From NCBI GenBank assembly GCA_016214695.1, contig JACRNY010000001.1, positions 744,001-808,000 of the forward strand: DNA of 64,000 nucleotides, read 5' to 3'. This stretch comes from Nitrosomonadales bacterium (GTDB taxonomy: Bacteria > Pseudomonadota > Gammaproteobacteria > Burkholderiales > Gallionellaceae). The notes below the pieces were generated by a model. The model saw only the letters and a list, made by a program, of their open reading frames with translations. It searched no databases and had not been told where the DNA came from. Positions 1,398 to 26,575 of the stretch are shown here, piece after piece. The position numbers and the translations under genes are program-made. Numbering within the stretch: the first letter of the stretch is position 1; the number at the start of each line of letters is the position of its first letter.

Positions 1398-4172
1398 TTA
1401 TCCTAATGCGATAATTTCCACATACCCAATCAACTCGGCCGAATAGCTCCCATCACCATTCGCCGCCCCTTTGTGCTTAAGCTCACGCTGCAGTGTTGGC
1501 TCTACAGCCCGCGCGAACAGATCGAGACGTTGTTCTGGGGAAAATCTTGGCGAAGCGGTTGGTGCCTGCAAATAGCGCTCGAATTGTCTTTCTACCGCAG
1601 GTACTCGCGTACCATCCTGCTTGACCGCAATCGGCTGTACAGCCACATGACGCTCACCTTTTCCGGCAGTTGCTTCGACCATCCAAAATGAGAGCAACAC
1701 CGGCGCTTCAACATCACCAGAAACCGCAATGCCAAGTTCCTCCGGTGGCAGACTGCGCCAGCGACCCATTTCTTCTTGCACAAGAGGATGATCAAGTCCC
1801 ATCAGCGCCAGATCATCATTCGCGGTGGCTGTATCTCGGTTCAAAGTAAATCGAACTACACGAGCACCATCCACTTTTACCAGATCGTAAGTCTCATCAT
1901 CCACCTTAACCATCCGCTGCTGACGATCTGCCACAGCAGCCGAAGTAAATCGAACCAATCGATCCATGCTCGACGACACATCAGAGAAGGGTTTGTAGTC
2001 GTCGAGGCTGAAGCCAGCCAGGTCTTGGAACAGATCGAACACTACCTGTCGTGCTTCGCGTGAATTCGCAAGTGCGGCCTCAAGCTCCACCTTAGTACGC
2101 TTTAATTCCGGATCGGACAGCGCCTCTTGATAGAGACGGTCGTAGTTGAGTCGTTCAGATAGCTGGCCAAGAATTTGTGCACGCAGGTCTTCGGCAATAT
2201 TGCCTTGCTCATCCACCTTGCCAACCGTTCGCGCAATCTCGGTTAGTTTCTCATCAAGCAGCAGGAAGATGCGCCCTTCTATGGTGTCGGAGAGCACAAG
2301 GTTATAGACCTGTGCCGTATGGTTCTGTCCATAGCGGTGGATGCGCCCTATACGCTGCTCCATGTCCATCGGATTCCACGGCAAATCGAAGTTGAACAGA
2401 ATGCGGGCGAATTGCAGGTTGATACCCTCGCGGCCAGCTGCGGTGCAGACCAGCACGCGCGGCCCGTCCTTCTGCCGGAAGCGACGCTCAGCTGCCAGCT
2501 TTGCACCATGATCACCACCGCGCAATACCGCCACACCTTGTCCGGGGAAAGTCTGCTCTATTTCGCGAGCGATTAAATCCACCGTACCAAGGTAAGTAGC
2601 AAAGATCACGATCTTCTCATTCGGGTTTTGCTTCCACAAAACACCAATACCATCGAGCAGCTTCTGTGCCTTGGTTTCACGTTGCTGCGGAAAGACCGCA
2701 AGCAATTCACCGATGCGCATGCGCTCCTCGGGCAAGTGCAGTTCAACTACTGCCGAAGCTGCTTCCTCAGCATGGCTGGCCGAATACTCGCTGGCATAAG
2801 GATCGGAGGCCAGCTCCAGTGCTTCTTCATCCAGTTTTTTCACCAGTCGATACTTTAGGTCGGCAAGCACACGATCCGCCTCGCTGCGGCCAATGCTGTC
2901 ATAGGGAAGTTTAAATTCCTCATGGATGAGTTTGCGTGCCTCATCTGTCAGTCGCTCGCGGCCTTCAATATCGAGGTCTTTGTCGCGAAGGAAAGCTTCA
3001 TGCAGGGTCAACATTAGCAGTCGGCGTTTTAATGTTCTGCGCACAGCCGAAAAACTCGACGCAGCAATCTTCTGGAAGATCGCCATCAAAAAGCCGAGCG
3101 CGCGACCTTGTCCACCTTGGCGGCGAGCAAGATCGAATCCATCCTCCAGATACTCGCGCAGTTTCTCGTAGAACCGCCGCTCCTCCTCACCCATAACAAA
3201 GGATTCGGTGTGCACCCAGCGCCGCGCAAACAGCGGAGAGCCGTCCGGCTGGCAGGCATCGGCCTTGGTGCGGCGGAACATCACCGTATTCAAACGGTGA
3301 CGGTGCTCTAGCATCTCCTCGGGGCTACCAAATAGCGTTGGATTCAACAGCTGTATCAGCATCCAGAATTGGAAATGGTTCCCTTGGTGAGGTGTCGCTG
3401 ATAGCAACATCAGGTCGCGAGAGTGATCCTTCAAGGCTTCGGCCAACTTGTAGTTCTCTGTTTTTCTGACCTTGCCACCCGTGCGGTATGCAGTCAGGTG
3501 ATGCGCCTCGTCAAACACCACCAAATCCCAGCGCGGAGCAGCCAGCAGACGTTTAATCCGGGCTGGGCGCTTTAACGTATCAATACTGGCAATGAGCCTG
3601 TCGTGCTTGGCAAAGGCATTGGTCTTACGGTCAGTTATGTCACCTTCGGAACCGAACACTTCGAAATCGAGATTGAAAACCTCGTTCAATTCACGGTGCC
3701 AGTTGTTCACGAGACCCGCAGGCACCACCATCAGCGCCCGTTGCAGTTCTCCTCTACTCGCCAGTTCGCGCAGGATTAACGCTGTCTCAATAGTCTTGCC
3801 GAGACCAACTTCGTCCGCTATCAGGTAGCGACGCGGTGAAGCGGTAGCAATTCGGTGAGTCAGAACCACTTGATGCGGGAGCAGATCAATCTTCGCAGAA
3901 GTCAGCGCCGAAGCGCTTTCCATCACAGGCAGGGCGTGAGCTTCGTAGGACAACCATGCTTTTCGCGCCCGGTCGACGCCACCGTCAACGGCACGCAAGA
4001 TGCGCTCGGTTCGGGATACCTGGCGTCGAACTGAAGCAAATGGAACACGACGCTCGCCTATACCAAAAAAAGCTCTTAGATACCCTTCGTGAGGTGCATC
4101 GAGCACGACACCTTGGCCGAATTCGCCGTGTGTAATTCGCTCACCTGGCTGAAATTGCTTCTCTGTTTCCAC
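1398..4172 (-). CDS. SNF2/DEAD-like helicase of BrxHII/DrmD type
   Basis: A 924-residue superfamily 2 helicase. Motif I is DEVGLGKT (residues 120-127), motif II is DEAH (221-224), motif III is SATPHQG (from about 258), and the second RecA domain holds CTAAGREGINLQ and QRIGRIHRYGQ (motifs V and VI), as in SNF2/RapA-like translocases. A short N-terminal module (about residues 7-50, HGEFGQGVV) precedes the motor. Helicases of this shape are the BrxHII subunit of type III BREX and DrmD of DISARM; the neighbouring DUF1156 methylase and PglZ favour the BREX comparison. The GTG start at 4172 has GAGG eight bases upstream, overlapping the stop of the preceding gene, so translation is probably coupled. 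Likely role, by family inference: DNA translocation in phage restriction. Confidence 0.88.
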   Translation of the reverse strand: METEKQFQPGERITHGEFGQGVVLDAPHEGYLRAFFGIGERRVPFASVRRQVSRTERILRAVDGGVDRARKAWLSYEAHALPVMESASALTSAKIDLLPHQVVLTHRIATASPRRYLIADEVGLGKTIETALILRELASRGELQRALMVVPAGLVNNWHRELNEVFNLDFEVFGSEGDITDRKTNAFAKHDRLIASIDTLKRPARIKRLLAAPRWDLVVFDEAHHLTAYRTGGKVRKTENYKLAEALKDHSRDLMLLSATPHQGNHFQFWMLIQLLNPTLFGSPEEMLEHRHRLNTVMFRRTKADACQPDGSPLFARRWVHTESFVMGEEERRFYEKLREYLEDGFDLARRQGGQGRALGFLMAIFQKIAASSFSAVRRTLKRRLLMLTLHEAFLRDKDLDIEGRERLTDEARKLIHEEFKLPYDSIGRSEADRVLADLKYRLVKKLDEEALELASDPYASEYSASHAEEAASAVVELHLPEERMRIGELLAVFPQQRETKAQKLLDGIGVLWKQNPNEKIVIFATYLGTVDLIAREIEQTFPGQGVAVLRGGDHGAKLAAERRFRQKDGPRVLVCTAAGREGINLQFARILFNFDLPWNPMDMEQRIGRIHRYGQNHTAQVYNLVLSDTIEGRIFLLLDEKLTEIARTVGKVDEQGNIAEDLRAQILGQLSERLNYDRLYQEALSDPELKRTKVELEAALANSREARQVVFDLFQDLAGFSLDDYKPFSDVSSSMDRLVRFTSAAVADRQQRMVKVDDETYDLVKVDGARVVRFTLNRDTATANDDLALMGLDHPLVQEEMGRWRSLPPEELGIAVSGDVEAPVLLSFWMVEATAGKGERHVAVQPIAVKQDGTRVPAVERQFERYLQAPTASPRFSPEQRLDLFARAVEPTLQRELKHKGAANGDGSYSAELIGYVEIIALG

Positions 4173-4181
4173 GTAGCAGCC

Positions 4182-4682
4182 TCAGGTAATGCGCAGGTGA
4201 AATAGACCGACAGGCTTTCCACCTTCGTGCAGAATAATTTCTTGGGGGTACTCGCGCGCCTCACCCCATAGCAATCGGCCGAAATCCAGTTGCTGGCCAG
4301 AATGGGGAGCGGCACATCGCCAACCCACGGCATCAGTTGCTGAATTGATCTTGATTCGGCCCTCACCTGAAGGAAGCCAAAAGATCAGGGAGGCTTCGCC
4401 ACCATAGAAATCTTGGAAGGATAGGATCGCAGCTTTGACATCCGCTCCTAGCCAGTTTTCAGCGTCGGGGGGATTGAGCAAATCCAAGCAGCCATCCAGC
4501 CCAGCTACAACCAAGGTTGTTCCATTATTGCTGGGTAAGTCTTCCGGCCAATTTCCTACAGCCAACAAAAATTGGCGCAGGCTCCATACCTCTGGAGTTG
4601 CACATACCTTTGCCAACGCCTCGGCATCCCATATCCAACTGGTGCCACGCCTTTGCCAGACAGAATCCCGTAACTGCTTCAT
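4182..4682 (-). CDS. Unrecognised 166-residue protein of the BREX-like cluster
   Basis: I do not recognise this family. The protein is soluble, has no signal peptide or membrane segment and is rich in tryptophan (WQRRGTSWIWDAEALAK, WSLRQFLLAVGNWP). It has a glycine-rich centre (FYGGEASLIFWLPSGEGRI) and a beta-rich C-terminus (GKPVGLFHLRIT). Its ATG overlaps the TGA of the DUF1156 methylase gene by four bases and its stop lies nine bases before the helicase start, so it is almost certainly translated with them. It has no P-loop, which argues against BrxF, and it does not look like BrxA. A small accessory or specificity factor linking methylase and helicase is an inference from position only. 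Confidence 0.75.
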   Translation of the reverse strand: MKQLRDSVWQRRGTSWIWDAEALAKVCATPEVWSLRQFLLAVGNWPEDLPSNNGTTLVVAGLDGCLDLLNPPDAENWLGADVKAAILSFQDFYGGEASLIFWLPSGEGRIKINSATDAVGWRCAAPHSGQQLDFGRLLWGEAREYPQEIILHEGGKPVGLFHLRIT

Positions 4683-7600
4683 AGCTCATACTCCTCAAAC
4701 AGCGAGCTTTGCTGGGGCTTAGCCGTCTGCGTTGCTGCCCAAGCGTTGTAGATGGATACAGCCCGCGAAGCGGCATTGCGCGTGGGCTGATCTGCACCAC
4801 GTTTTTGCAGCCATTCCAGCAACGGCTTCAAAGCCACATGCGGCTTGAAATTTTCGTTCTTCAACGTGTCGGCGGCATTAATGCCACTGCCATCGAAACA
4901 TGACCCGATCAGTACCAGTGCCTGATCCAAATCAGAGGTAAGTTTGCGCTTGTGCTTTCCATGCCAGTCACGCGCGAATCCGAGCGAGTCAACCAAAGTG
5001 AACACTTTATTTTTCTCGCTGCACCAGCCACGTTGCTCAAATTCGTCTGGTGCAATGCCGGAACCGCGCAGAAACTTCTGTATCTGGTCACGTGCGACCT
5101 CGGTCTTGCCATCAAAAATGCGCAGGAATTGGCGAGTTATTGGCTCAGCATTAACTGGCGGCGGCTCCTGTCCGCCTTTGCCGTCTTCGTCGATCAATTG
5201 GTTAATCCCAACAAGTGCGTCCTTGACCGTGATCGCGCGCCCCTCGTCGACATAAACTTTGCCGTAGTGGCGTGAGAAGTATTCCAGTGCCTTGCCACGC
5301 CGAATCACTTGGATGTCCGCCGAAGGCAAACCCTCCTTAGCGTGGTTTTCCAGCATCGCCTGCAATTGACGAACATCAGCCATCACCTCGCGGCGCATCC
5401 GACCCCAGCTCACAGGCTTGGGCTCTTCGGTACGCTTTCGGCACACATGTATGATGTCGTATTCGATGGTCTTTGAGCCGAACTCGCCCTCACCCTTGGT
5501 CTCATCCGAACGAATCGGGTACGTCGCCTCTAGGTAAAACCCTGCATCGAACAGCGACTCCAGCACGGCCACCCAAGGCTCGTCCTCGCTATGGTGGAAG
5601 GTAAATGCGAGGATGCCGCTTGGCTTAAGGATGCGGTGAGTCTCGCGCCAGCATTGCGTGAGTAGACGCTGGTAGAAACCATCAGCGTCTTCAGGTTCGC
5701 GTGCTCGATTTGCCACAACCTCCATCGCCTTCGGCGTGAACTCCGTTCCAAAGATATCCGGATATTTAGATTTCAGAACAAGGCGCAGCCAGACGTAAAA
5801 GAAATCAGAAAGCTCTGAGTAATGCAGCAACCCGCCGAACGGCGGATCGGTTATAACCAGATCAAGTGAAGCGTCTTGTATTCCTGTCTGCTCGGTCGAC
5901 GATCCCTGCGTAATGTCGGCTAGTGCTAAGTGATCACCCGGAAGCACCTTTTCGCTCTTGCCTGTACATTGCGCAGCTAGTCCAGGATTGATCTTTTTCA
6001 GGTGTTCAATTGCGACTAATTCCCAAGGGGCTTTAGCCCATTCGCCACCTTCGACAATGGGAGTTACAGCCGAACTCCACACACCGTACCCAACCGGACA
6101 AAAGACACCCAGTTCAACTACTGTCGATTTGGGATGAAAGTTGCTGTTCGAAAGGGCGGGTGCAAAGTGATCCTTGCTGAGATGCCAGAAGGAAAACATA
6201 GATTGGTTGCGTAGATAGTTCTGAAAAGCACCTAAGACATACTCACGTGTATCCCACGAGAATGTTCCAACAGTCGCAATGGCTCTAAGCAACTGCGTAT
6301 GAACAAGTAGTTGTCGGGGATTGAACATCGTCCACCAATGAGTGAAGCCATGATTCGGTACTCCCCCCTGAAGGTGATGGGTCATAAATGCATACGGCAG
6401 TTCACTCTTGGGCCAGTAAGGTGACAAGTCTGTATCCTTGCGAGCCTCCCATTCTCTCAATGCAGCATCATACTGTGCGGAAAGTTGCTCATCAAAGGCG
6501 GAAAAGTAACGTCCGTTATATGAATCCCCGCGTTCAGCGGCTTTAGGCGAATAGCCCTGTACAGCATAACCTGCCATCGGAGCAGTCTTGCCCGTGGCCT
6601 TCACCGTCGTAAGTACATCTTGCACCGTGCCACAAGCACCACACGAGTAGTTTGAATTCTTTGGAACAGTTCCACCGTCCTTACCAGTATTGAATGTGAG
6701 CTTAGTTTCCGGGCAGGTTACGTTTTCAGGGAGATCGCCTCGAACCTCCAGCAGTCGAATGTTTCGAGCGCGCTCTAGATTCCAGCGCGCGCTGGCATCG
6801 GCATCATCCTGTGCCGATCCACCAAACGGCAGACCGTTGGCGTCGTTTTTCGGACTACCAGCCAGCCACTGTGGATGTACCAACAGCGACATCTCGACCT
6901 TCTTGTTCTTGCCCTTGCCTAACTTGACAATAGCTGCATGGCCACAATGTGGACAAATGACACCTCGCTTGGGATCGAGGATTGAGAACGGATATTCATC
7001 CGGCGCCACATATAGCGGTACGTCAGGGGCCATCCGTGCGTTGTTTTCCTCAACGTGAAAATCACCGCCGCATTTACTGCAGCTGTTCTCCCAATACTTT
7101 ACGGACAGTGTCTTCACCGCCATCACTGGGCTGGTCATGATTGGCGTGCGATGACCACATCCCGTCACCTGACAAGGGCCGTGCTTGGCCCAAAAGGTAT
7201 GGATAATCTCTGGACCTTCGTAGCTGTATTCTCGACGTTGCTCTGACGTAAGCTTGGTTGGGTCAAAATTTGCCGCCATGACCCTCTGGGTAGGAACGTG
7301 TGTCCATTTCCCTTTCTCACCATTTGGGCCGTCACAGTAGTAATACGGCATGATCTGCGGCTTGACCTCGGCCTCAATTTCGGCGAGCAGGCGCTTTACC
7401 TCCTCAAGATCGACGTTGGCTAGTTCCTGCTTAACGACAAACCATGCCACCGGGTTTAAGTCGTTGCCATACATCTGCATCCCAAGGCGCGAGCCTTCCA
7501 CAAGCGTAGTGCCTCCGCCCATGAAAATATCGGCCACCTTGAGGTGCTTGAACGCACCTTTCTTCTGATGATTAGCGTAGTAGTTGTCCCACACCAGCTT

Positions 7601-7888
7601 GGCCGCGTGCGACTTGTCTTCAGGCGCTTTGGTGGCAGCTGCGATCAACATCGAACGAAAAACGCTAGAGCGTCGCCGCGCCCACCACTTCGACATTTGG
7701 TAGATCGGCTTACCGGCATTGCCTTCTATGATCGCTACTTGATTGACAGGCAGGATCGGAAAATCAACCTCCAGGCAAGTCTTGGGGCGATTCGGATCAT
7801 TGAAGTCGACAGTTTCCATCGCAACAGCTTTGCCTGCACCTACGGCTTTGGCTACTTCTTGTGCCAGGATTTCTTTGTTGGTTGCCAT
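4679..7888 (-). CDS. DUF1156 adenine-specific DNA methyltransferase (PglXI-like)
   Basis: A 1069-residue methylase of the Zn-ribbon type (COG1743, DUF1156). The N-terminus has the DUF1156 signature around SKWWARRRSS (residues 66-75). The S-adenosylmethionine motif is FMGGGTT (122-128), and the catalytic motif is DPPFGG (681-686), as in N6-adenine methylases. Several Cys pairs, CSKCGG (270 on), CPHCGH (312 on) and CGACG (416 on), look like zinc ribbons inserted in the core. In type III BREX a methylase of this class, PglXI, marks host DNA to separate self from phage. The start is the ATG at 7888, two bases after the stop of the preceding gene; the end overlaps the next gene by ATGA. Modification motif unknown. 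Confidence 0.9.
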   Translation of the reverse strand: MATNKEILAQEVAKAVGAGKAVAMETVDFNDPNRPKTCLEVDFPILPVNQVAIIEGNAGKPIYQMSKWWARRRSSVFRSMLIAAATKAPEDKSHAAKLVWDNYYANHQKKGAFKHLKVADIFMGGGTTLVEGSRLGMQMYGNDLNPVAWFVVKQELANVDLEEVKRLLAEIEAEVKPQIMPYYYCDGPNGEKGKWTHVPTQRVMAANFDPTKLTSEQRREYSYEGPEIIHTFWAKHGPCQVTGCGHRTPIMTSPVMAVKTLSVKYWENSCSKCGGDFHVEENNARMAPDVPLYVAPDEYPFSILDPKRGVICPHCGHAAIVKLGKGKNKKVEMSLLVHPQWLAGSPKNDANGLPFGGSAQDDADASARWNLERARNIRLLEVRGDLPENVTCPETKLTFNTGKDGGTVPKNSNYSCGACGTVQDVLTTVKATGKTAPMAGYAVQGYSPKAAERGDSYNGRYFSAFDEQLSAQYDAALREWEARKDTDLSPYWPKSELPYAFMTHHLQGGVPNHGFTHWWTMFNPRQLLVHTQLLRAIATVGTFSWDTREYVLGAFQNYLRNQSMFSFWHLSKDHFAPALSNSNFHPKSTVVELGVFCPVGYGVWSSAVTPIVEGGEWAKAPWELVAIEHLKKINPGLAAQCTGKSEKVLPGDHLALADITQGSSTEQTGIQDASLDLVITDPPFGGLLHYSELSDFFYVWLRLVLKSKYPDIFGTEFTPKAMEVVANRAREPEDADGFYQRLLTQCWRETHRILKPSGILAFTFHHSEDEPWVAVLESLFDAGFYLEATYPIRSDETKGEGEFGSKTIEYDIIHVCRKRTEEPKPVSWGRMRREVMADVRQLQAMLENHAKEGLPSADIQVIRRGKALEYFSRHYGKVYVDEGRAITVKDALVGINQLIDEDGKGGQEPPPVNAEPITRQFLRIFDGKTEVARDQIQKFLRGSGIAPDEFEQRGWCSEKNKVFTLVDSLGFARDWHGKHKRKLTSDLDQALVLIGSCFDGSGINAADTLKNENFKPHVALKPLLEWLQKRGADQPTRNAASRAVSIYNAWAATQTAKPQQSSLFEEYEL

Positions 7889-7890
7889 AG

Positions 7891-8814
7891 TTATTGTTTT
7901 CTCAGTGTAAGCATCAGTTCTAGGTCAGTTAGTCTATTTACCACTTTTGCGAGTGCTCTAAGCTTAGGCATCAAGCTGCGACCGCCAGGGGTTATTAGCT
8001 TGTTAATAGATTCTTCGTAATAAGCTCGAACCTTACCAAAGACCTGCTGTTCTTGGTCACCACCAGCCACAAGCATTAGTATTTTGCTCACGTAACTGTC
8101 AACAGTTTCCTCGGTAATGCCTTGCCTACTATCTGCTAGTCGGATTTGTTCATTTACGACTTCGTATATGGATTTAGCTTCCACCAGAACGGGATCACTG
8201 TGTAGGCTGACTTCGCCGTAACAGTTAAAGCAGAAACGGTGGTCTTCTGGTGGAGCATTGACATCCATATACGGTGGAATGCAAATCAGCCCCATCATCT
8301 GAGGAACGTTTATGCGCTCCAATAATTCAAAATGACTTATGGTCACATGACCCAATATCCAAGGAACCCCTCCTGGCATTAAAGCTCCGCCATACTGAAG
8401 ACGTTCTTGATCAATGAAGGTCGGTGCCACATAGTAGACGCGTTCACCTTTTGCCTCCATCGCAACCAGGAGTTCGTGTTGCGAACGTGGCTCACCTTTT
8501 GCCTTGGCTCTCAGATTGAAATAAAAGAGTCCACCGGTGTCATCAAATTTCCATAGCGATCTATGGGACCAGATTTGTGACTGTGAAGATTTTGGCCGAC
8601 TGGTGAACTCTGGGAGTTTGTATTGGAAGTAAAGTGGTATCGCTTCAACAATAGCAGCATCCCAACCTCGCTTCGCCTCTGCACCTGGCGAAATTGGAAC
8701 AATCTGAAGCTTCCGGCTCGCGTATGGTGGAATCCGAAAAATCGATACTACATAGTCATGGATGGACTGCTCAATAACTGGTGCATCTTCGGGTATTTTC
8801 CACGGCGCTGTCAT
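7891..8814 (-). CDS. Unrecognised 307-residue protein with a possible D-QxK nuclease core
   Basis: No family recognised. The N-terminal third contains GAEAKRGWDAAIVEA and then FQYKLP: E46, D52 and Q64-x-K66, followed by a strand-like FYFNLR near residue 100. The spacing D-(about 11)-QxK between predicted strands resembles the PD-(D/E)XK nuclease variant with QxK, as in DUF4297/Cap4-type nucleases. This reading is a hypothesis from a short motif. A CFNCYGE stretch is present, and the C-terminus is helical. No signal peptide or membrane helix. The gene lies three bases after the PglZ gene and two before the methylase gene, so it is an integral part of the cluster. If it is a nuclease, it would supply a cleavage activity that canonical BREX lacks. 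Confidence 0.75.
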   Translation of the reverse strand: MTAPWKIPEDAPVIEQSIHDYVVSIFRIPPYASRKLQIVPISPGAEAKRGWDAAIVEAIPLYFQYKLPEFTSRPKSSQSQIWSHRSLWKFDDTGGLFYFNLRAKAKGEPRSQHELLVAMEAKGERVYYVAPTFIDQERLQYGGALMPGGVPWILGHVTISHFELLERINVPQMMGLICIPPYMDVNAPPEDHRFCFNCYGEVSLHSDPVLVEAKSIYEVVNEQIRLADSRQGITEETVDSYVSKILMLVAGGDQEQQVFGKVRAYYEESINKLITPGGRSLMPKLRALAKVVNRLTDLELMLTLRKQ

Positions 8815-8817
8815 TGA

Positions 8818-9813
8818 CTATTTACTTTTTGAAATTTCAATAAATGGCGATAAGACCTCTAGCAGCGACAACCCGCCGTGCGTCAATGTTGGATATCCGC
8901 CCTGGCTCTTCCACTTCCAGCGGCCAACAGCCAACAGATGTTTGCCGTGTGGGCTATTAATTTGCATTGCCACTGGAGGAACAAACGGGCCGGTTTCTCC
9001 GATCCCCGCTTTGCTGCGTCCGCTTGAAAAGGTTTTCTTGAGGAACTGCCCAACCTCGCCATCAGCATCAGGAAAAATACCCGTGGCGGCATATCCATGG
9101 TCAGAGGTAATTACCAGCCGCCGTCCGGTTGCCAATTGTTCAACAAAGGCCCAAAAGTCATCACTGCATAATTGCCAGACCGCATCGCGTGTCAGGATAT
9201 CAAGCCCTTGTCCCGCGCCTGAACCTTCGTGTACTTTGCTGTCTGGCCAGTGATGCCAGAACACCAAGTTTGGCGCAGTATTGATCAGTCCTGCACAATC
9301 CTCCCACGCCATATCGACGCTCTCGGTATATGCGGGTTGAAGTTTGTGGGCTAGTCCACCACCGTTATTCTGAAGTTGGCTGCGGCTAGCAAAACCTAGT
9401 GCTTGAGCAAACTCATTGGTTTCACCTGGTAGTTCTGAAGCATTGGCAGAAACCTCGTGAAGGGTAAATCCGCGCTCCTTAGCTCCTTGAAGAAGCCAGG
9501 GCAATTCACGCAGCGATAGCCCATCAAGGATTAATACTGCTTTGGCGCTGTATGGCTCGTTCCACCAGCGCACTAGTCGATCCGAAGTCCGTTCAACCGT
9601 ATCACCGAATGCATGCCATAAATCCCAACCACTGGAAGACAGGAAATTATCTAGTTCGCCAATTTCGCGGTCACGTTTCGTCACCTCGCTTGGGGCATGG
9701 CTAGCGGCTAGGGGTTTAGATGCAATTTCAATTGCCTTGCCGATGATGATGGGCCATGCGTCTTTGGGTGCGTCCTTGGTAAGGCGTTGAAGAACCTCGG
9801 CATCGATAGCCAT
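8818..9813 (-). CDS. pglZ: PglZ-domain protein (alkaline-phosphatase superfamily core), short form
   Basis: 331 residues with PglZ hallmarks: VLILDGLSLRELPWLLQ, in which D97 would bind metal; NLVFWHHWPDS; RLVITSDHGYAATG, in which D238-H239 would be metal ligands; and a C-terminal HGGLSLLEVLSPF typical of the family. PglZ is the phosphatase-fold subunit shared by all BREX types and several related defence systems. Full-length PglZ proteins are usually about twice this size, so this one appears to be the catalytic core alone, without the extra N-terminal region. The start ATG at 9813 shares one base with the stop of the DUF499 ATPase gene, so the two are translationally coupled. Biochemical role in defence unresolved. 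Confidence 0.87.
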   Translation of the reverse strand: MAIDAEVLQRLTKDAPKDAWPIIIGKAIEIASKPLAASHAPSEVTKRDREIGELDNFLSSSGWDLWHAFGDTVERTSDRLVRWWNEPYSAKAVLILDGLSLRELPWLLQGAKERGFTLHEVSANASELPGETNEFAQALGFASRSQLQNNGGGLAHKLQPAYTESVDMAWEDCAGLINTAPNLVFWHHWPDSKVHEGSGAGQGLDILTRDAVWQLCSDDFWAFVEQLATGRRLVITSDHGYAATGIFPDADGEVGQFLKKTFSSGRSKAGIGETGPFVPPVAMQINSPHGKHLLAVGRWKWKSQGGYPTLTHGGLSLLEVLSPFIEISKSK

Positions 9814-12527
9814 CAGTCTTCCTCCTTCTCAAGGTTAAGCTCGAAGGTCATGCCATCGGGCAGCTTCTTTATCAGCTCCTTGAGTTGTGCGCCATTTGCA
9901 GAGGAAACTTTGATGGATACTTCGGCAACCTTCGTCGCTGGGCCTATGCCCCAACCTTCCAGTTTTCCGATTAGATTTAACGGAGATGTGGCTGGGTTGT
10001 TTAAGCTTATGCGTGGCTTACTTCCAGAGGTGTTGCCACCAAAGATACCGCCAGCAACAGGTGCGGCAGGTTCTGCCACACCAGGTGGTGCAGCAGTTGG
10101 TGTTGCACCACCGAACAAACCACCTTCCTCATTCGTAGTAGGTGTTGATGGTGCAGCCCCTCCGGTTGTCGGAACTGAGGACGGTAACAACAAAAATACT
10201 TCATCGAGTTGACGACCAGTATATGAAAGCTTTGGTCGCATACGCCTCCACTCAGTGTCTTCATCTTCACCGGTTTGGGCTTGCAGGTACTCCATTCCTC
10301 TCAAATTGATCGCAATCTTGCCTCGTGCACATAATCGCAAGATGCGCTCCTTCATTGAAGTTTCGCCTAACCACGGGATACAGTCCTGTCCAGACGGACG
10401 CGGTTCCTGCAACTCCCGCAAAAGCTTACCAACGGGGGAGTTTTCACCAGCGGCTTCGAGTACAAATTCTTCAAAATCTTCAGGTACGAACAGATCGTTA
10501 AGCAATGCATCTTCAATCGCTTCGGGTATTTGCGCGCCCTGTTTCTTCAAACTTTCAACGCTGAACACGCACTGATTTGGCTCAGTAAAACTCCAACGAT
10601 GCAGCACCGCAAAACGGTCGAATCGCTTCTTCAAAATGTCGCGCAGTTCACCTTGGTACTTGGTTTGCAGTTTTCTGTATTCAGGATTCTGCCCACTCCA
10701 CTCTTGCGCCTTCATTTCGGCGCGAGCGAGAATCACGAGATCACGATCCTGGAAAGCATTCGACGACCCGAAACGTGGTAGTAGGAAGCGGACAGTATTG
10801 CGACGTTTCTGCAAATGGTCTTTAAGCCAACGGCCTAAACGCTCATTAAGCTTATCCGGCTCTTCCGGCAGCACAAGAATCGGCAGGCGGTCATCCCAGC
10901 GTTCGGGTTGTTCTGTTTCATCGAGCGAAGTCCAAGGATCGGTCAGCCATGACTTTGGCAATACAATGATGCGGAATGTCTTGGCGACCTCTTCGGTGCC
11001 ACCGATGACATAGCGGATTTCCTTGGAGAGTTGAGCAAGGTCAGAACCATCAGAAAATAACCTGTCATTACGGGCACAAGCCATCAGTTTGGCCTGGGGG
11101 TTTTCTTCTTCGCGGAAAACCAGTCGATTCCCGTCCTGATGGATATTGAAGCTGTTCTCGATGATGGTAGATAGTTCGACCTGAAAGCTATTGTCATCTA
11201 CCGCTTTGTCACGAGTAATGTCCGCCTGCAAGGTCGCTGGCTCGGCCCCAGCAAGGTTGCCAACGGCAATCGAGCGAAGCCAAAGGGCCCCTATGATTTC
11301 CTGAAGATGAGGGACGGAAGTGGCATATCCCGGCACCGCCTCGGTCACAGAAATAATGTTTTGCTGAGCCTTGGCGCTAAGCGAACGGTGATGTTCATTT
11401 GATACCGAATCCAGCAACGCTCCAATCCCGGATGCATCGTCATCCAATCTAAAGTCAGCCGCTGTGAGTACTGGTGCAATCTCGCCGCGACTCTTATAGA
11501 GGTTGGCAAGGATGCGAATCATGTCGCGTGTTTCTTGCGCATCCGTCGCGATCAGCACCTGCTCTTCAAGAAGGCGAAGCAGATGTGGCGCATAAGGCCA
11601 AGACTCGCTGAATTCTTTGTGTTTGCGCTCTTGCTCGGACGATGGCACGTCCAGCAAACGAAAATACTCCGATACGTGCGTAGCTACCAATGAATCAATG
11701 TTGTTCGTTGGAATCTGCAGGCGATTGTCGAACAAGCGGTGCAACAGCATCCGCCGACGGTCTTGCTGAATACGTTCAGCGTTGCCACCCGCCTTGAAGT
11801 CGATGGCGATTGGGTTGACGCGATGAACCTGTTGATAGGCGTCACTGCCGCCATTGCGAACCGAGATGACGAGCACAAGAAGATCGGGGTGATCTTTCGC
11901 GATTTCAGAGAGAATCTGAATAAAGTTGAATGCCCATTGCTTCCACGGGTACTGCTTGGTGTTGGTGAGACCGTCGTACCAAGTCTGGAATTCATCCAGC
12001 AACAACATCGTAGGCTTGTTCTGCAACAACTCAATAATCAGCTTGTCGGAAGGAATGTCGGTCTTCGCTGCTCCCATGCCTTCCCACTTGCCCTTAATGT
12101 AGGTGCCGTGAGGGTGACGCTCGAATAACAAGTCCCAAAGAAACTTGTAGCGTTGGCGATGTAGGCTTTCGCCGATAACCAACATGCCACTACGAAGGGG
12201 GATTTTCCCGATTTGGGGTGTACCTAGCGTGGTTGCCCATGAATTGAGCCAAGCGCTAGTGGATGTCGGGTCATTGACGGCGTGGTAAAGAGCAGCCATC
12301 AAGTGAGACTTACCCAGACCGCGTTCGCCGATCACAACGACCGGTCGTCCTTGGTTCGGCCCGACTGCCTCGATGCCTTTCAGCAGATCATGGGTCGGAT
12401 AAGTGATTTCAAGGAATTCTTTAGCCGCAATCTGGGTTGCGCCAGTGTTTGATTCGTTGGACAACTCAATTGCTGTCCCTTTGAGGCGCTTGCCCCTAAA
12501 TTCTTCCCGCAGCGTTAAGCCAAGCAT
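9813..12527 (-). CDS. DUF499 AAA+ ATPase (BrxC/PglY-like)
   Basis: A 904-residue ATPase with Walker A GERGLGKS (residues 67-74) and Walker B LLLDEF (175-180), followed by LVISVRNGG, matching the DUF499 architecture of BrxC/PglY, the large ATPase of BREX. Near the C-terminus a low-complexity Pro/Thr/Gly linker (roughly residues 775-830) separates the body from a small tail domain that ends in EKEED. It is the first gene of the minus-strand cluster, with an AAGGG ribosome site before the ATG at 12527. The presumed promoter lies in the AT-rich stretch at about 12545-12620, where no strong consensus is visible. It probably forms an ATP-driven complex with the PglZ protein encoded next, as in BREX; that is inference. 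Confidence 0.88.
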   Translation of the reverse strand: MLGLTLREEFRGKRLKGTAIELSNESNTGATQIAAKEFLEITYPTHDLLKGIEAVGPNQGRPVVVIGERGLGKSHLMAALYHAVNDPTSTSAWLNSWATTLGTPQIGKIPLRSGMLVIGESLHRQRYKFLWDLLFERHPHGTYIKGKWEGMGAAKTDIPSDKLIIELLQNKPTMLLLDEFQTWYDGLTNTKQYPWKQWAFNFIQILSEIAKDHPDLLVLVISVRNGGSDAYQQVHRVNPIAIDFKAGGNAERIQQDRRRMLLHRLFDNRLQIPTNNIDSLVATHVSEYFRLLDVPSSEQERKHKEFSESWPYAPHLLRLLEEQVLIATDAQETRDMIRILANLYKSRGEIAPVLTAADFRLDDDASGIGALLDSVSNEHHRSLSAKAQQNIISVTEAVPGYATSVPHLQEIIGALWLRSIAVGNLAGAEPATLQADITRDKAVDDNSFQVELSTIIENSFNIHQDGNRLVFREEENPQAKLMACARNDRLFSDGSDLAQLSKEIRYVIGGTEEVAKTFRIIVLPKSWLTDPWTSLDETEQPERWDDRLPILVLPEEPDKLNERLGRWLKDHLQKRRNTVRFLLPRFGSSNAFQDRDLVILARAEMKAQEWSGQNPEYRKLQTKYQGELRDILKKRFDRFAVLHRWSFTEPNQCVFSVESLKKQGAQIPEAIEDALLNDLFVPEDFEEFVLEAAGENSPVGKLLRELQEPRPSGQDCIPWLGETSMKERILRLCARGKIAINLRGMEYLQAQTGEDEDTEWRRMRPKLSYTGRQLDEVFLLLPSSVPTTGGAAPSTPTTNEEGGLFGGATPTAAPPGVAEPAAPVAGGIFGGNTSGSKPRISLNNPATSPLNLIGKLEGWGIGPATKVAEVSIKVSSANGAQLKELIKKLPDGMTFELNLEKEED

Positions 12528-12992
12528 AACCCTTGTTGCCCCTTATAATTGTTCGAAATCCCCCTTGGATACGCTGTCTTTGCAGCATTTTGCAGACGAA
12601 ACAACGCGTCTTGCATAGCATCCATCAATTATTCGCCCAAACTACAGCGGTCTTGCGAATGTTACCAGCAAATAGCCTTTAGCTGATATGGCGTTGGGGG
12701 GCTAAAAAATGTGATTAAGGCGGATCGGTATTCACAAGAAGCCTTCCTGATGACGTGATCACGAAGGCTTATCACGACACCCACACAAATTCGGGGAACT
12801 GCCCCTCCATTCCATTTGCTTGTCATCGTCTTTGGATGGATAATGCGAACGTGGCTGATGCGATTTCTACTCGCGCCTCACGCAGCCTTCACTACCCTCA
12901 CTGAATCAACCATCCGAAATGACCTGCCGATCTTTGGCTAGGGGATACGGCTTTGCTTTTTTCCTGGTCGCTCTGACATAAGGAGCCTTTCA
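12528..12992. other. Intergenic region between the BREX-like cluster and the HD-domain gene
   Basis: No convincing gene is visible in these 465 bases. The stretch must hold the divergent promoters of the minus-strand ATPase gene and the plus-strand HD gene. An inverted repeat, AAGCCTTC at 12739 and GAAGGCTT ending at 12770, encloses a smaller TGATGACGTGATCA palindrome-like core. It has no T-run on either side, so it could be an operator rather than a terminator. Confidence 0.5.
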
Positions 12993-13643
12993 ATGTCTAA
13001 AAAAACCAACCAATGTTTACTTTCGCCGAAGTTCGCTTTGGCGCTTCAGTTCGCCAACGAAATTCACAACACACAGACCCGCAAGGGCTTGGGAGCACCC
13101 TACATTTCACACTTGATGGCAGTGAGTGGCTTGGTGATGGAATACGGAGGCAATGAAACACAAGCAATTGCAGCGTTGTTGCACGATGCCGCCGAGGACT
13201 GCGGTGGGCGCCCTATGCTGGAAACTGTGCGCGTTCTCTTCAGGGGCGACGTGGCCGAGATTGTGGAAGCATGTACCGACACCTTTGACAACCCCAAACC
13301 AGAATGGCAGCCTCGGAAGGAGGCGTATTTGAAGGCAATGACCAAGAAGCCAGGCTTAACCAAACTGGTGTGTTGCGCGGATAAGTTACACAACATCTCC
13401 AATACGTTGCGCGACATCAGGATAGCGGGGGCGGATACATGGAAAGTGCGAATGGAGAAAACCGAGAACAACTCCAGTGCAAAGCAGTGCTGGTATTACC
13501 TTGGCTGCCTTGAGGCGCTTTCTGCTGGATGGAGCAATCCAATCCGCGATGAATTTGCTCGCTCGGTCATCCTGTTGTGCGAACTAGTGGGCACTACAAG
13601 CGATGTATCCAAGGCCCATCAATTGGCGGGAGCTGAGGGATGA
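12993..13643 (+). CDS. HD-domain phosphohydrolase-like protein
   Basis: 216 residues with an HD-domain metal-binding pattern: YISHLMAVSGLV, then AALLHDAAEDCGG and, later, CADKLHNISNTLRDI. This matches the HD domain of RelA/SpoT-like and related phosphohydrolases; no synthetase or regulatory domain is attached. The likely reaction is hydrolysis of a nucleotide or phosphodiester, with substrate unknown. The ATG at 12993 has AGGAG ten bases upstream. It overlaps the next gene by ATGA, so the two form a pair. Stand-alone HD proteins of this kind are common in accessory islands. Defence or stress-nucleotide functions would be speculation here. Confidence 0.75.
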   Translation: MSKKTNQCLLSPKFALALQFANEIHNTQTRKGLGAPYISHLMAVSGLVMEYGGNETQAIAALLHDAAEDCGGRPMLETVRVLFRGDVAEIVEACTDTFDNPKPEWQPRKEAYLKAMTKKPGLTKLVCCADKLHNISNTLRDIRIAGADTWKVRMEKTENNSSAKQCWYYLGCLEALSAGWSNPIRDEFARSVILLCELVGTTSDVSKAHQLAGAEG

Positions 13644-14743: not shown

Positions 14744-14815
14744 GCCCAACGTGCTAGCTCAGGGGCGCTAAGCCGGCTTGCCGGTGTAGCGTCCCTCTCG
14801 AGCACCGGGTTACCC
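14744..14815 (-). repeat. attC-like imperfect hairpin (candidate integron recombination site)
   Basis: Between the small membrane-protein gene and the DUF4145 gene lies a long imperfect inverted repeat. The outer GTGCT/AGCAC, the middle GGG-CGCTA/TAGCG-CCC and the inner CCGGC/GCCGG pairs are separated by unpaired bases, as in attC sites. Read on the minus strand it ends in CACGTTGGGC, matching the attC R' consensus GTTRRRY. The opposite end (GGGTAACCC, overlapping the DUF4145 stop codon) is a poor R'' site. The position between two same-strand genes fits a cassette junction. No integrase is in the window. Confidence 0.4.
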
Positions 14816-15460
14816 ATCTCTACGCTCAATGGCATTGCGAGCTCCTTCTGGAAGAGACGCATAAAGTGCCTCGATTCGCTTCGGTTCAGCGATCCTGTTT
14901 TCCATGATGATATTTATTAACCCAAACAGTGCTTGGGCGATTTCAGGGTTGTCATCAACAGATATTTCGCCCGGATGTACCGCATTGTTCCCAATTACAC
15001 GCACCACATCCAATGCCTGCTGTATCTGCACTGGCAGGCCTGATTGAACAAGAACACCAATATCGTCGTTGAGGTTCGCGCCGCTACCACCAAGGTGAAC
15101 GCACAGCTTTTGCAGCGAAAGCCGAAGCAGAGCCGCGGCCCCTCGCGGAGATGCATTGACAATATCTTTTGCTTCGAGATAGTCACGTTTCACATCTTCC
15201 GGCATTTCCAAGTGTGGCAAAGGAGCAGCACTGATACCCGAGGGGTAAAGCACATGTGCTTCGCTATCGTCGAGGAACCAAACCATACGGCCTTTGCAGT
15301 GGTGGCAGTTCGCTATGTGTAAACCAGTGCCCTGATACATCGATCCGCCGCCCGGAGCCGAAACCTGCTTTTTTGTCTCGAGCCACCAGAACTGCGCGTA
15401 GACATCGCAATGGGGGCAGGTAAAGCTCTTTCCATTGAACTGCGGCGGTATGTATGTCAT
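14810..15460 (-). CDS. DUF4145-domain protein with N-terminal zinc ribbon
   Basis: From the ATG at 15460 the protein has 216 residues: an N-terminal zinc ribbon (FTCPHCDVYAQFWW paired with CHHCKGRMVW) and a C-terminal helical DUF4145 domain. The latter includes DYLEAKDIVNASPRGAAALL, the stretch up to LCVHLGGSGANLND and VIGNNAVHPGEI. DUF4145 modules are frequently attached to restriction or defence enzymes but also occur alone; the His in NAVHPG is reminiscent of HEPN-like folds. The frame is open upstream to 15676, but that extra stretch lacks protein-like character, so the later start is preferred although its ribosome site is weak. Role unknown. Confidence 0.72.
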   Translation of the reverse strand: MTYIPPQFNGKSFTCPHCDVYAQFWWLETKKQVSAPGGGSMYQGTGLHIANCHHCKGRMVWFLDDSEAHVLYPSGISAAPLPHLEMPEDVKRDYLEAKDIVNASPRGAAALLRLSLQKLCVHLGGSGANLNDDIGVLVQSGLPVQIQQALDVVRVIGNNAVHPGEISVDDNPEIAQALFGLINIIMENRIAEPKRIEALYASLPEGARNAIERRDG

Positions 15461-15888
15461 GGCGGTTTTCTGGATGGCTACAGTTATTAGACGGACCCAC
15501 CGGTCCGTATTATCAAAAATAGTGAGGCGCGCATTCTTCTCATAACCAATTGGTAATTGTGAATCACCTTTTTTGCCTGCCCGCATATGCATAATAGTAC
15601 AGGCAAAGTGGCTTTGTATAATCTTGCGCGCATTAACCACCATGAAGGGCCGCTTCTGCGCCGGGAGCGGAAGCAAGTGTAAGTTACAGTAGCAGTCCGC
15701 TCAGGCCGACGACTGGACCTCGGCCTTTGCGGTCGTTGTAGTTGCCTGTTGATTTCGTTCCCTTCCATCCCACAACGGTCATAACGACTTCTCTAAAACA
15801 GACATTTAGAATAGTTCGAACCTAGCTCCATAAGTTCGTATCGAATAACGTTCATGATTAGTTCGGCTGGTGAACCATCATGAAATTT
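15461..15888. other. Intergenic region without a convincing gene
   Basis: About 430 bases with no supported coding region; an N-terminal extension of the DUF4145 frame runs into it but looks non-coding. One inverted repeat is visible, AGGCCGA at 15703 and TCGGCCT ending at 15726, with a ten-base loop. It may hold the DUF4145 promoter and the transcription end of the HicA-like gene. Confidence 0.4.
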
Positions 15889-19703: not shown

Positions 19704-20147
19704 CTAATTCACCACACGAATGACTTCAGGGCGATCACACAAACTAAATCTGATAATAACAATTTGATCAAATCCTTCCGATAATGAAAGTGGCTGCATT
19801 TTCCTAAGCGTGCTTTGAATGATACGCTCAGGAATCTTTTCTTGATTGTGTCTAGCGAGGTTTCTAGTAATTGCCCTCACAATCGGAACATCAAGCTGAA
19901 TACCGCACACCTGGTAGCCCATGTTCTTGGCCGGGGCGATGTACTTGGCGCGATCCTGCCTCGTTGGATTGGTGTTATCAATTACAACCCGCCGCCGTTC
20001 TGAAATGATTGATGAATATAGATCCATTTCTTTGCTGCGGGACTTGACCGTATCCAAATTAACTCGGGCATGTGTATCTGCAAACTTTTGCTGATACAAG
20101 GTGCTTTTGCCAGAGCACTGAATACCGCTGAGGATGACTAGCTCCAT
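19704..20147 (-). CDS. P-loop polynucleotide kinase-like ATPase
   Basis: 147 residues from the ATG at 20147. The Walker A motif GIQCSGKST lies at residues 8-16 and is followed by VNLDTVKSRS and a central VVIDNTNPTRQDRAKYI. The ID-NTN-P pattern is that of bacterial and T4-like polynucleotide kinases and related zeta-type P-loop kinases. It begins one base after the stop of the gmtX-like gene, so it is translationally linked to the recombinase trio. DNA-end processing during integration, or a defence cargo, are both possible. The longer frame to 20267 overlaps gmtX and is rejected as the start. Confidence 0.75.
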   Translation of the reverse strand: MELVILSGIQCSGKSTLYQQKFADTHARVNLDTVKSRSKEMDLYSSIISERRRVVIDNTNPTRQDRAKYIAPAKNMGYQVCGIQLDVPIVRAITRNLARHNQEKIPERIIQSTLRKMQPLSLSEGFDQIVIIRFSLCDRPEVIRVVN

Positions 20148-20148
20148 A

Positions 20149-20805
20149 TCAACTCGCCTCTGTTTCGCCGTGCCCAAGCGTTGGAAATGACTTTTTCCAT
20201 TCAAGGTAAAGTTTTGAAATATCCGCCGGCACAATGACACGGTTCTTCTTTGATCTCGCCCATCCATTTACAATTTCGGCTGTGTTTGTATCAACAATAT
20301 ATTGACCAGAACTCGCTTCAAGAATAAGTGAAATTGCGCGCCCGAATTTGTCCACCACCCCTTCACTATTATTTTTCTGTATAAACTTTGGCGGCTCCTC
20401 TGACACATCACGAATATTTTTCTCTATAAAGCTGTTCAGCCGCTTGTTTTCCTCTCGCAACCTATCAAGCTCTTTAAGTTCAAAGTTGGAAATGAGTCTT
20501 TCGACATCACGTTTGTGTGATGAGTCTTTTAATGAGGCTAAATACCCGTCCAGCTGTGTCCTATATCGCGTTGCTCTCAACAATGTTGATGGAAAGATTT
20601 TGTTGCCTTCGCCCGCTCTTCTTTCTGATATCACGGCAGCAACATATGTAGCTAAGTGAGTAATATTGCGAAAACTCACACGCTGAGCGCGCAATACTCC
20701 AAGCACCGCCACAATTTCACCAACGGTGGATCTAATTTTCCCCACCTGATATTTTTCAAAACGATTTTCTCCTAGACTGGCTCCCACTTTCTTATTCTTA
20801 GTCAT
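20149..20805 (-). CDS. gmtX: GmtX-like third protein of a recombinase trio
   Basis: 218 residues, basic and helical, with a clear leucine-rich coiled coil (LKELDRLREENKRLNSFIEK, about 108-128). It begins eight bases inside the end of the preceding recombinase gene and is followed at once by the kinase gene. By size and position it corresponds to GmtX, the non-recombinase member of Gamma-Mobile-Trio elements; it also recalls TnpC of Tn554-like transposons, another small coiled-coil partner of two tyrosine recombinases. Likely role: accessory DNA-binding or complex-forming factor for integration. Assignment rests mainly on context. Confidence 0.65.
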   Translation of the reverse strand: MTKNKKVGASLGENRFEKYQVGKIRSTVGEIVAVLGVLRAQRVSFRNITHLATYVAAVISERRAGEGNKIFPSTLLRATRYRTQLDGYLASLKDSSHKRDVERLISNFELKELDRLREENKRLNSFIEKNIRDVSEEPPKFIQKNNSEGVVDKFGRAISLILEASSGQYIVDTNTAEIVNGWARSKKNRVIVPADISKLYLEWKKSFPTLGHGETEAS

Positions 20806-23800
20806 GAAGCAGCTCCAAAGATTTTAGAATTGGAGTGGGGGCTACTAGAGCCTTCTCCATGTGCTCCGCCAACTCCTTTGGGCGCATTCCTGTCGCAATG
20901 CAGATTCCGCGTATTAACCCTCGAAAATTATCGACCAGTTGATATTGGTCTGTCGGAGCAAAGAGTTCTTCCATTGATCCTGTCATTGCAAGAATACGAG
21001 GCCGCACCATTGCAATATCGGCCAACAACGGTAAATCGGCTAATTCTGGATATGCAACAGCCTCCTCACATTGAATAAGCAGATTTTCCAACTCAGAATC
21101 TGGCACAAGACATTTCTTGAAATCTTTGGAGAGCATTTCTGGATTATTAACTAGCGTCCGGTCCTTTAATTCCTCAACGTTTTTTGCGAGGACCTCCGCC
21201 GTAAGAGTCCAAGCACTGAGTTCCCCAGCAATAAACAGTATTTCATCTTCGAGAGTCTCAAGTACCTCCTCAGAAGCATTTCTATCTCCGACCAACTGTA
21301 ATTGGATCTTTGCTTTATCCAACTTTCTCGACAATGCACGACAATGCGCAAGTATCCTTGGCAAGTGATCAATGGTTTTGATGCTGTAGGGACATTGGCC
21401 GCACGCCCTACGTCCAATCCCAATAGCAATCTCCGGAGGACACTCGTTGCCTACCGGACAAATGTGAGTCGAATTTATTCTGATTTCTTCAAGAGCAATC
21501 CCGCGGATGATGCTCATACCGGATTTAATCTCACCAGAAGCTTCTTCATTTGAACTTGAGAATGCACCATAATCTCTGAGAACATCGCTAATTGGTGACG
21601 TAGCTAAATCCCTTTTCAAACTCGAATTTTCTCTGCCCGCATCAATAGATAACACCTTGCCTTGTCGATATTCACTATGACCACTCCGTTCCCGATTGAA
21701 TGCCTTCACTACCTCCATGTAATCACTATCAACAACTGTGTAATACCTAACCATGTTTTCGCTAGTATGGCCAGTGATGTATTTGCCAATAATGTGCGGC
21801 GGGAGGATCGGTGCATGAACTGATACCACCGTTGCTCGCAAGCCATGGGGAGTGTATTTCGTATCGAATTCACTTCGATATAGCATCGCCTGCTTGAAGT
21901 CTTCTTTTACCTTGAACGAAAGACTAGTCACTTCATAAGGCATGGGGTCAGTCGTAGCCTGCCCTAGGCTTAGTTTAATTTGATTAAAAAAGTAGATGAT
22001 ATTGTGAAAGAATAAAGATAAAGCAGACGCATCATATGTTTGAGCATCATCATATCTCATGAAAACAGGACAAATTTTTCCGAAATCGCTTTGCTCGTGA
22101 TAATCATAATAAAGCTCCGTTTCAAAATGAGGAGCTGATATCCATGACTGACTTTCGATCTGTCTTTCAAGCGCCTTAAGTACTGTCATTGCTGTTGGCC
22201 TAATCCACTCGTAAGTCACCTTATCTGTATTTACAAGCAAGTCAAAACTTGAGTATGCTGGATCGACTGGCTGTGCTTTGAAACTTCTTTTGTCGAGCCA
22301 TCTGATATGAATATGACGAAGACCTGTTTCACTTCCTACGATAACTTGATGGATACCATGCAAATTAATTATTGGTAAAAGCCTTTGGGGTGAGTGATTT
22401 AGCTGGACATACTTTGTTGGCACCACAGTAATCGGAAGCCAAAGCAACTTGAAGCTGACGGGAGTTCCATCCATCTTCGTGAATCTTATGATTGGGACAA
22501 AGCCAAAGTCCTCAGTATTAAGCACTGTATTTTTGGTCTTGTCTTTGAGTATTGAGTACCAACTTTCTGGAGCAGTTCCCTCCCCAATCTTCTGGGCCAA
22601 ATACCAAGAAAATTCTCCTATTGCATGAATCAACTCGTAGAAGAGCCTGTAATCGTTTATGCGGAAAGTTTTTTTCCGCGTTCCACGTGGGCGTCTTTCC
22701 CTTGGCTTATCTATAGACAGTATCGGATTAACAAACCCTCTTAGCTCCTCTTCGTCATTGGAAATATTCTCCAGATAGTCAAAAAATCTCTCAATCGCAG
22801 TTACGCGGTCGCGCTTATAAAGAACTCTTCGCATCGGGGTCACTCCGATCCCCTCCAAATGCTTTCTGCGAAACTCCAGAGGCAGGGGCGGTTTCTCTCC
22901 TTCTTTTGGTAGCACTGAGAAAAGATACTCATTCAACCTACCAAGCGTCTGCTGCTCGGCTTTGGGACTTTTTATCTTCTTAACCTCCACGAGATAGGTG
23001 ATGTAACGTTGTTGATACCGCATCCATACTTCCTTTATTTCTGGATACGATGTTAAATAATTATTTTCCGTTAATTCTTCCTCAAGTTTGGCTGGAGTCT
23101 GAACAAGGGGATGATAGATTGATAACTTTGCGGTATCGAAATGGCAGCGGTCTGGGATCGCTGACAAAATCGGGCCAAGAAACGCTCGAGGAGATAGCGG
23201 ATATGCTGGCAGTTCACTTTCGCCAGACTTCCTTTTAGCCAACTCTGAGAATAATGCAGCCAAATCACCATCATTTATATCTTCGACAGAGTGCCAATCG
23301 CTGGCAAGAATCGGACGCCATGCGTACCAATCGTAGTTCCTCCAGCCTGTCGTTTTTATAAAGCCGGATATGTCTGGTACAGCAAGCTTTTCATCAATGA
23401 AGGGGCTCCTCAATATTGCCAAAAGTTCTGTGTATAGCTGTTTGGAAATATCGCTTCTATATTTGGACGCCGGAAGCGAAAAGCTCATTGGCAACAGTAT
23501 TGCTTTCTTAGTCCATAGCGCAATTAGAAATATTCTTAGCCCTCGCCACACTTCTCTAGCAAGAGTATTGGGAATGTCGCCAGACAGCCCAATGCTCGTC
23601 ATGATTTGACTGTGATTCTTCGTCACCTCACCTCCCGTATGATCGTGAACTGCTGAAAACACAGTATTCACCCATGCTCTGTCCAAAGTAGGACTGTACT
23701 CAGGGAAGTAACGACAAAATGCCAATGCTTTTAGTCTGTTGTTCTTGGTGGCGGTAATAAGATCAGGCGATACGCGCTCTTGTAGCGGGGCGTAAGTTGA

Positions 23801-25221: not shown

Positions 25222-25259
25222 TGTGAAGAATCTAATGAATATCTCCTTAATACATAATG

Positions 25260-25280: not shown

Positions 25281-25303
25281 GCATACGCAGCCGATCCACT
25301 ATT

Positions 25304-25324: not shown

Positions 25325-25348
25325 ATGAATGTTGAGGGAGGTATATCT

Positions 25349-26560: not shown

Positions 26561-26575
26561 GATAAAACATTGCGC

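Follow-up and report, generated by a model that had tools for sequence, protein, structure and literature searches.

A probable Type-3 BR defence operon carrying a foreign gene between pglZ and the methylase gene

A 64,000-nt stretch of DNA from a Nitrosomonadales bacterium (the window) contains near its left end six tightly packed genes, which a preliminary description took for a possibly distinct BREX-related defence system with two unrecognised proteins among its parts. The locus raises the question of whether these genes form a new kind of system, a diverged form of a known one or a known one with something added. Our answer, which we consider probable, is the last: a Type-3 BR (DUF499-centred BREX-related) defence operon into which one foreign gene has been inserted. 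The six close or overlapping minus-strand ORFs were all confirmed and make up the ORF set at 1398–12527 (Table 1). Adjacent genes overlap by 1 nt (ATPase/PglZ) or 4 nt (methylase/p166) or are separated by gaps of 2, 3 or 9 nt; p307 starts 3 nt past the pglZ stop codon and ends 2 nt short of the methylase start. No consensus promoter was found in a scan of 12400–13100.

Table 1. Features of the operon and its upstream region in the window
Feature	Coordinates	Strand	Remarks
DUF499-type AAA+ ATPase, BrxC-like, first gene of the operon	9813..12527	-	904 aa; Walker A GERGLGKS, Walker B LLLDE
Standalone PglZ, alkaline-phosphatase-like core, putative nuclease effector	8818..9813	-	331 aa; weak HMM match
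p307, embedded cargo gene, candidate PD-(D/E)XK-like nuclease	7891..8814	-	307 aa; no family match
DUF1156 N6-adenine methylase	4679..7888	-	1069 aa; DPPF motif; eight cysteines (two possible 4C zinc fingers)
p166, conserved core subunit, probable iSTAND (inactive P-loop) sensor	4182..4682	-	166 aa
SNF2/RapA-like helicase, BrxHII/HmaA type	1398..4172	-	924 aa; GTG start; no nuclease domain found
Divergent intergenic region upstream of the operon, presumed promoter region	12528..12992	.	presumed from gene layout

The initial assignments of a DUF499 ATPase, a PglZ core, a DUF1156 methylase and a SNF2 helicase were borne out by HMM matches and conserved residues. The ATPase scored 35.0 bits against Pfam DUF499 (gathering cut-off 23), had no match to Pfam DUF6079 at E ≤ 0.1 and matched the PADLOC HmaC model weakly (E 0.0019); the match of the PglZ protein to the PADLOC PglZ model was also weak (E 0.0012). 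For the methylase we obtained 30.2 bits with Pfam N6_N4_Mtase, 16.6 bits with Pfam DUF1156 (under the cut-off of 24) and 86.6 bits with NCBIfam DUF1156_antiphage (1.2e-24, under the curated cut-off of 1000); judging by its PADLOC matches (HmaB 1.2e-40, PglXI 8.9e-23), it is nearer to HmaB than to PglXI. The helicase matched the PADLOC models BrxHI/BrxHII (1e-100) and HmaA (1.2e-93) as well as Pfam SNF2-rel_dom (78.5 bits), Helicase_C (66.3 bits) and, weakly, RapA_C; no nuclease domain was found on it in Pfam at E ≤ 0.1. Residues were counted in genes matched nearly end to end. With the window included, the Walker A G/G/K/S and Walker B D/E residues of the ATPase are invariant in 81 of 81 aligned sequences, PglZ residues D97, T132, D191, D238, H239 and H312 (our choice of putative catalytic residues and metal ligands) in 87 of 87, and the methylase DPPF motif in 89 of 89; seven methylase cysteines are kept in 89/89 and C419 in 82/89. 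The SNF2 motifs I/II are invariant in 79/79 aligned sequences. The functions attached to the residues chosen in these four proteins are those that we presume for them.

To define the core of the system we collected relatives. A genome scan with the methylase alignment gave 229 relatives, of which the best 80 were kept; plasmid searches gave 42 records with the PglZ query and 181 with the methylase query, from which four representatives of the clade were taken (Klebsiella, Ensifer, Aminobacter and Tenderia); a scan of viral contigs added 8 loci, for a total of 92 counted loci. A distant haloarchaeal locus (L034) and the short loci L001–L029 were excluded from the counts; two of the latter, L003 and L004, contain the same operon, with no gene between pglZ and the methylase gene. 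All five core genes (DUF499 ATPase, PglZ, DUF1156 methylase, p166 and SNF2/BrxHII-like helicase, in this order) were present in 88 of the 92 counted loci, with a single order and strand in 88/88. The four incomplete loci (L088, L098, L102 and L112) lie on short contigs or start within the methylase gene or near it. Because the same order and strand recur in 88/92 loci, the five-gene set is not a product of chance. The ATPase–PglZ spacer is 2 nt in 81 of 88 relatives; the commonest spacers at the PglZ–methylase and p166–SNF2 junctions are 9 and 12 nt, respectively. Since the sample consists of the best genome matches and a few plasmid and viral loci, percentages describe the clade of the window and not all Type-3 BR.

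This core fits the Type-3 BR (BREX-related) system described in January 2026 by Rakesh and Krishnan (PMC12839542), a fit set by the description in the consulted text of that paper and not by sequence comparison with its members. As described there, Type-3 BR consists of a DUF499 ATPase, a DUF1156 methylase, a nuclease-free helicase, a standalone PglZ and a separate iSTAND gene; it occurs in 569 taxa, with an active standalone PglZ near-universal and iSTAND in 82%, and a subset of its methylases has two 4C fingers (PMC12839542). An RRM-like domain at the C-terminus of DUF499 is a further feature of the system. The window has a DUF499 ATPase, a DUF1156 methylase, a nuclease-free BrxHII-like helicase and a standalone PglZ; its separate small gene p166 would be the iSTAND gene, and by sequence the eight methylase cysteines are as expected for that two-finger subset. 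The proposal of a distinct BREX-related system therefore stands in part: the system is BREX-related and not canonical, but it is not new, as it fits the published description of Type-3 BR (PMC12839542). The operon differs from that description in having the extra gene p307.

The two unrecognised proteins turned out to be of different kinds. Neither p166 nor p307 had a match in Pfam, NCBIfam, PADLOC or PHROGs at E ≤ 0.1. Of the 92 counted loci, 91 gave a tblastn match for p166, and the one that did not is a 4-kb contig; p166 is a conserved core subunit. Its AlphaFold2 model, built with 41 sequences, is confident (mean pLDDT 92.3). The Walker A pattern is absent from p166, and a Foldseek search of PDB and BFVD with the model gave no match at E ≤ 0.001; many of the weak matches were P-loop ATPases, and rank 38 (E 2.0) was a chain of the BrxC-BrxB-PglZ entry 9zll. 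A profile comparison of p166 with two BrxF proteins (hhalign) gave a probability of 0.03%, and neither by sequence nor by fold did p166 match BrxF/BrxB significantly. By eye, the fold has a strand at the place of Walker B, then a long helix, a strand and short strands, and resembles the published description of iSTAND as far as the consulted text gives it. Position, size, missing Walker motifs and secondary structure judged by eye suggest that p166 is probably the iSTAND counterpart of BrxF/BrxB. In most of the near clade p166 is 60–75% identical to that of the window; in L035, L056, L097, L116, L117 and L118 the identity is 47–51%, with the other core genes at 72–92%. p166 may be a module that is swapped between operons.

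p307 is not part of the core but a cassette between the PglZ and methylase genes. A relative occurs at this junction in one of 88 loci (L064:9052–9999), with 24% identity over 207 columns (E 4e-9 in a single comparison). The first reading of both small proteins as parts of the system is accordingly corrected: p166 is a core subunit, and p307 stands outside the definition of the system. The GC3 of p307 is 0.42, compared with 0.48–0.57 for the five core genes of the window. Homologues of p307 were sought at several depths in overlapping genome sets, and the bacterium's own genome was the sole match among 61 genomes of the relatives, 369 genomes of the class and 398 genomes of the phylum (the last with alignment A4). 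With the same alignment, 6 of 399 genomes of the order matched at E ≤ 0.1, namely the own genome and five at 0.019–0.097. We took these five for chance matches, three of them crossing a stop codon; the best (L123) lies among genes read as housekeeping (leucyl-tRNA synthetase, peptidase). No homologues were found in the plasmids, phages or viral contigs searched. The family is apparently new.

The function of p307 is conjectural. The PD-(D/E)XK nuclease signature has the form E ... D ... (E/Q)xK, and E15, D52, Q64 and K66 are identical in p307 and its L064 relative. A PD-(D/E)XK-like nuclease is our best single guess from sequence, a tentative one, weakened because the four residues are shared by just two sequences and were chosen after the fact. 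The predicted structure of p307 is of low confidence (mean pLDDT 32.2); searches of PDB sequences with p307 or the L064 relative gave weak, incoherent matches alone, and profile comparison with p166 gave nothing.

The junction occupied by p307 is used by other genes in other genomes. We defined cargo as an insert of more than 300 nt at a core junction and left the window itself outside the counts. The PglZ–methylase junction (slot 1) contains cargo in 23 of 88 relatives and none in 65 of 88; SIR2-HerA and IetAS were found eight times each, a p307-like gene once and other genes six times. At the methylase–p166 junction (slot 2), 8 of 91 loci have cargo, three times Schlafen-type genes and otherwise, among others, lipase-like, nucleotidyltransferase and PIN-like genes. 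Nine of 91 loci have cargo at the p166–SNF2 junction (slot 3), seven HEC-01-like and two Schlafen-type. The ATPase–PglZ junction is free of cargo in all 88 loci. At least one cargo is present in 32 of 88 complete loci. Large cargo clusters were identified by running PADLOC on one representative each, the remaining members being assigned by BLAST clustering; representatives matched SIR2 (9.6e-88) with HerA (1.8e-225), IetA (3e-144) with IetS (E = 0) and HEC-01A (8.3e-124) with HEC-01B (1.8e-67). Two representatives of the Schlafen-type cluster were identified through Pfam. HEC-01A-like genes are present in seven slots, four of which also have the clustered HEC-01B partner. Some cargo is toxin-antitoxin-like: PemK/MazF, a nucleotidyltransferase with a partner that we read as HEPN-like, and DUF5615/PIN. 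The GC3 of cargo ORFs averages 0.10 below that of their own core (58 of 76 picked ORFs, on the plus strand and of at least 150 aa, many of them mutually related and so not independent).

Several pairs of loci allowed us to locate the cassette borders. Two Stutzerimonas loci, L048 with IetAS and L055 with SIR2-HerA, share ~93% identity to either side of slot 1; the alignment breaks off at the final ~19 nt of pglZ and restarts ~5 nt before the methylase ATG, and blastn found no match between the two inside the slot. L041 and L085 have the same pattern at ~86% identity. These are two Type-3 BR operons of a single Hydrogenophaga MAG, with IetAS and SIR2-HerA as slot-1 cargo. When the window is compared with L064 and with L035, L036, L037 and L069, in which the slot is empty, homology stops at 8834–8843, in the last pglZ codons, and restarts at 7888–7889, the methylase ATG.

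To follow cargo turnover we placed slot states on a quick IQ-TREE tree of 93 methylases, with SH-aLRT support alone and with uncertain long branches for L119 and L121. Slot 1 requires 21 changes in 89 loci, compared with a mean of 23.5 (21–24) in 200 label shuffles, 4 of which needed 21 changes or fewer. Slot 3 requires 8 changes in 92 loci compared with 8.8 after shuffling (37 of 200 shuffles at 8 or fewer). The cargo thus tracks the methylase tree slightly in slot 1 and not detectably in slot 3; with 21 changes against 23.5 in slot 1, cargo turnover is nearly independent of the core. Megablast of the Klebsiella operon against E. coli gave matches in 20 of 5426 genomes, none over 80% of the operon; the 15 matches listed cover the SIR2-HerA part alone, and the one locus inspected has SIR2-HerA but none of the core genes in the stretch shown.

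The three cargo sockets are apparently new for Type-3 BR. The literature searched, in which the 2024 embedding preprint of Payne et al. is represented through citations, holds no description of them. In its consulted text, PMC12839542 reports Type-3 BR neighbourhoods without conserved standalone nucleases and auxiliary nucleases as absent or present in limited instances, and the words SIR2, IetA, subtilase and DUF4276 do not occur in its main text. The relatives collected here differ from that account in that 32 of 88 complete loci hold embedded genes, several of them defence systems.

The biochemistry, which we infer from knowledge of the families, would be as follows. The methylase would mark host DNA by N6-adenine methylation, and the ATPase, p166 (the probable iSTAND) and PglZ would form a surveillance complex acting on unmarked invading DNA; the SNF2/RapA-like motor would translocate or remodel, and PglZ would cut or nick. 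p307 would be a second-layer cassette, probably co-transcribed given its 3- and 2-nt spacers, in the place where relatives have SIR2-HerA, IetAS, toxin-antitoxin-like or other genes, and most likely would act as an independent or backup effector. A wider proposal is that Type-3 BR operons are modular hosts whose three fixed sockets exchange complete defence systems as precise cassettes, with cargo functionally coupled to core (sensing by the core, killing or backup by the cargo), and that p307 founds a new effector family confined to the PglZ–methylase socket; we regard it as possible but rather doubtful.

The same tight spacing could indicate a true subunit of this lineage's system, such as an alternative sensor or specificity factor, instead of independent cargo. 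Such a role would agree with the sole known relative (L064) occupying this very slot in another operon of the kind and with the lack of others in the overlapping sets of 369, 398 and 399 genomes. Still, 87 of 88 loci have no relative of p307 at the junction, including L035 with a methylase 88% identical to that of the window; the slot elsewhere holds whole unrelated defence systems and the GC3 of p307 is lower, and we think a subunit unlikely. Somewhat less likely again is a passenger without defence role, i.e. an anti-restriction, toxin-antitoxin-like or DNA-maintenance gene: the toxin-antitoxin-like genes in several slots (PemK/MazF, nucleotidyltransferase with HEPN-like partner, DUF5615/PIN) speak for it, but the commonest cargoes (SIR2-HerA, IetAS, HEC-01 and Schlafen-type) are known or predicted defence genes and p307 sits in its slot without a partner gene.

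The operon lies within a defence island, flanked on the left by type I RM and Fic genes and on the right by PD-T7-4-like and HNH/type IV-like genes. Left of the window, in the same genome, L128:2583–9114 encodes type I RM HsdM, HsdS and HsdR, with a BRO-N gene embedded between HsdS and HsdR. Just downstream of the operon, positions 64–1289 contain an E1/ThiF-like gene of 241 aa and a gene for a 116-aa histone-H1-like KAAKKPA repeat protein. A DUF4145 protein encoded near the operon (14810–15676) matches PADLOC PD-T7-4 at 5.6e-85. The region 19704–28585 contains a tyrosine integrase (23896–25299), neighbours of 1033 and 218 aa that matched nothing in Pfam, a AAA protein resembling zeta toxin and an HNH protein with a match to a type IV restriction model. 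We place the island edge near this region because the integrase is followed by rpoD (26576–28585) and GC climbs from ~0.44 to 0.56–0.64.

For a BREX-related system with PglZ that was reported without conserved nucleases nearby, embedded genes in about one third of complete relatives matter in two ways. Cargo at fixed junctions, swapped between near-identical cores, offers a direct route to new defence candidates, p307 among them, and also to testing joint action of a core immune complex and embedded modules.

Among the known systems considered, DISARM was rejected: the matches to DrmD (313 bits, cut-off 610) and DrmA both fall on the single helicase, and DrmB is not among the matches listed for the six operon proteins. 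Type III BREX has the order BrxF-BrxC-PglXI-BrxHII-PglZ-BrxA. The window has functional counterparts of BrxC, PglXI, BrxHII and PglZ, but its ATPase and methylase are of the DUF499 and DUF1156 (BR) type and its PglZ is short. As was noticed at the outset, no BrxF-like protein is recognisable (model NF033453 has no match in the genome at E ≤ 0.001) and the gene order differs from that of type III, the core order being the same in 88/88 complete relatives; a BrxA model is not among the matches listed for the six operon proteins. We rejected membership in type III BREX on the ATPase type, the BrxF model and the BrxF profile comparison. A divergent or degenerate type III operon with BrxA and BrxF as its two small proteins is highly improbable: the helicase is closest to BrxHI/BrxHII in PADLOC and the methylase does match PglXI, but the ATPase is DUF499 and not DUF6079, the methylase is nearer to HmaB, PglZ is a short standalone protein, p166 gave no alignment with either of two BrxF proteins, and the unknowns did not prove to be diverged BrxA/BrxF in type III order.

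Hma (helicase-methylase-ATPase), counted among BR systems by PMC12839542 in its consulted text, is alike in its homologous helicase and methylase, and also in hosting embedded genes, from which HEC (Hma-embedded candidates) takes its name in the sources consulted. Membership was rejected, as the ATPase matches HmaC weakly and no nuclease domain was found on the helicase, unlike the helicase-nuclease HmaA; PglZ and p166 are additions. Embedding of defence genes in multigene systems is already known from the texts consulted, with Septu in Hma and with TgvAB (PMC11411939) and DarTG2 (PMC12255303) in type I RM. The type I RM cases resemble ours, as far as those texts describe them, in placing whole defence modules between subunit genes of a host system; they differ in that the host here is Type-3 BR and p307 is a single gene of no recognised family.
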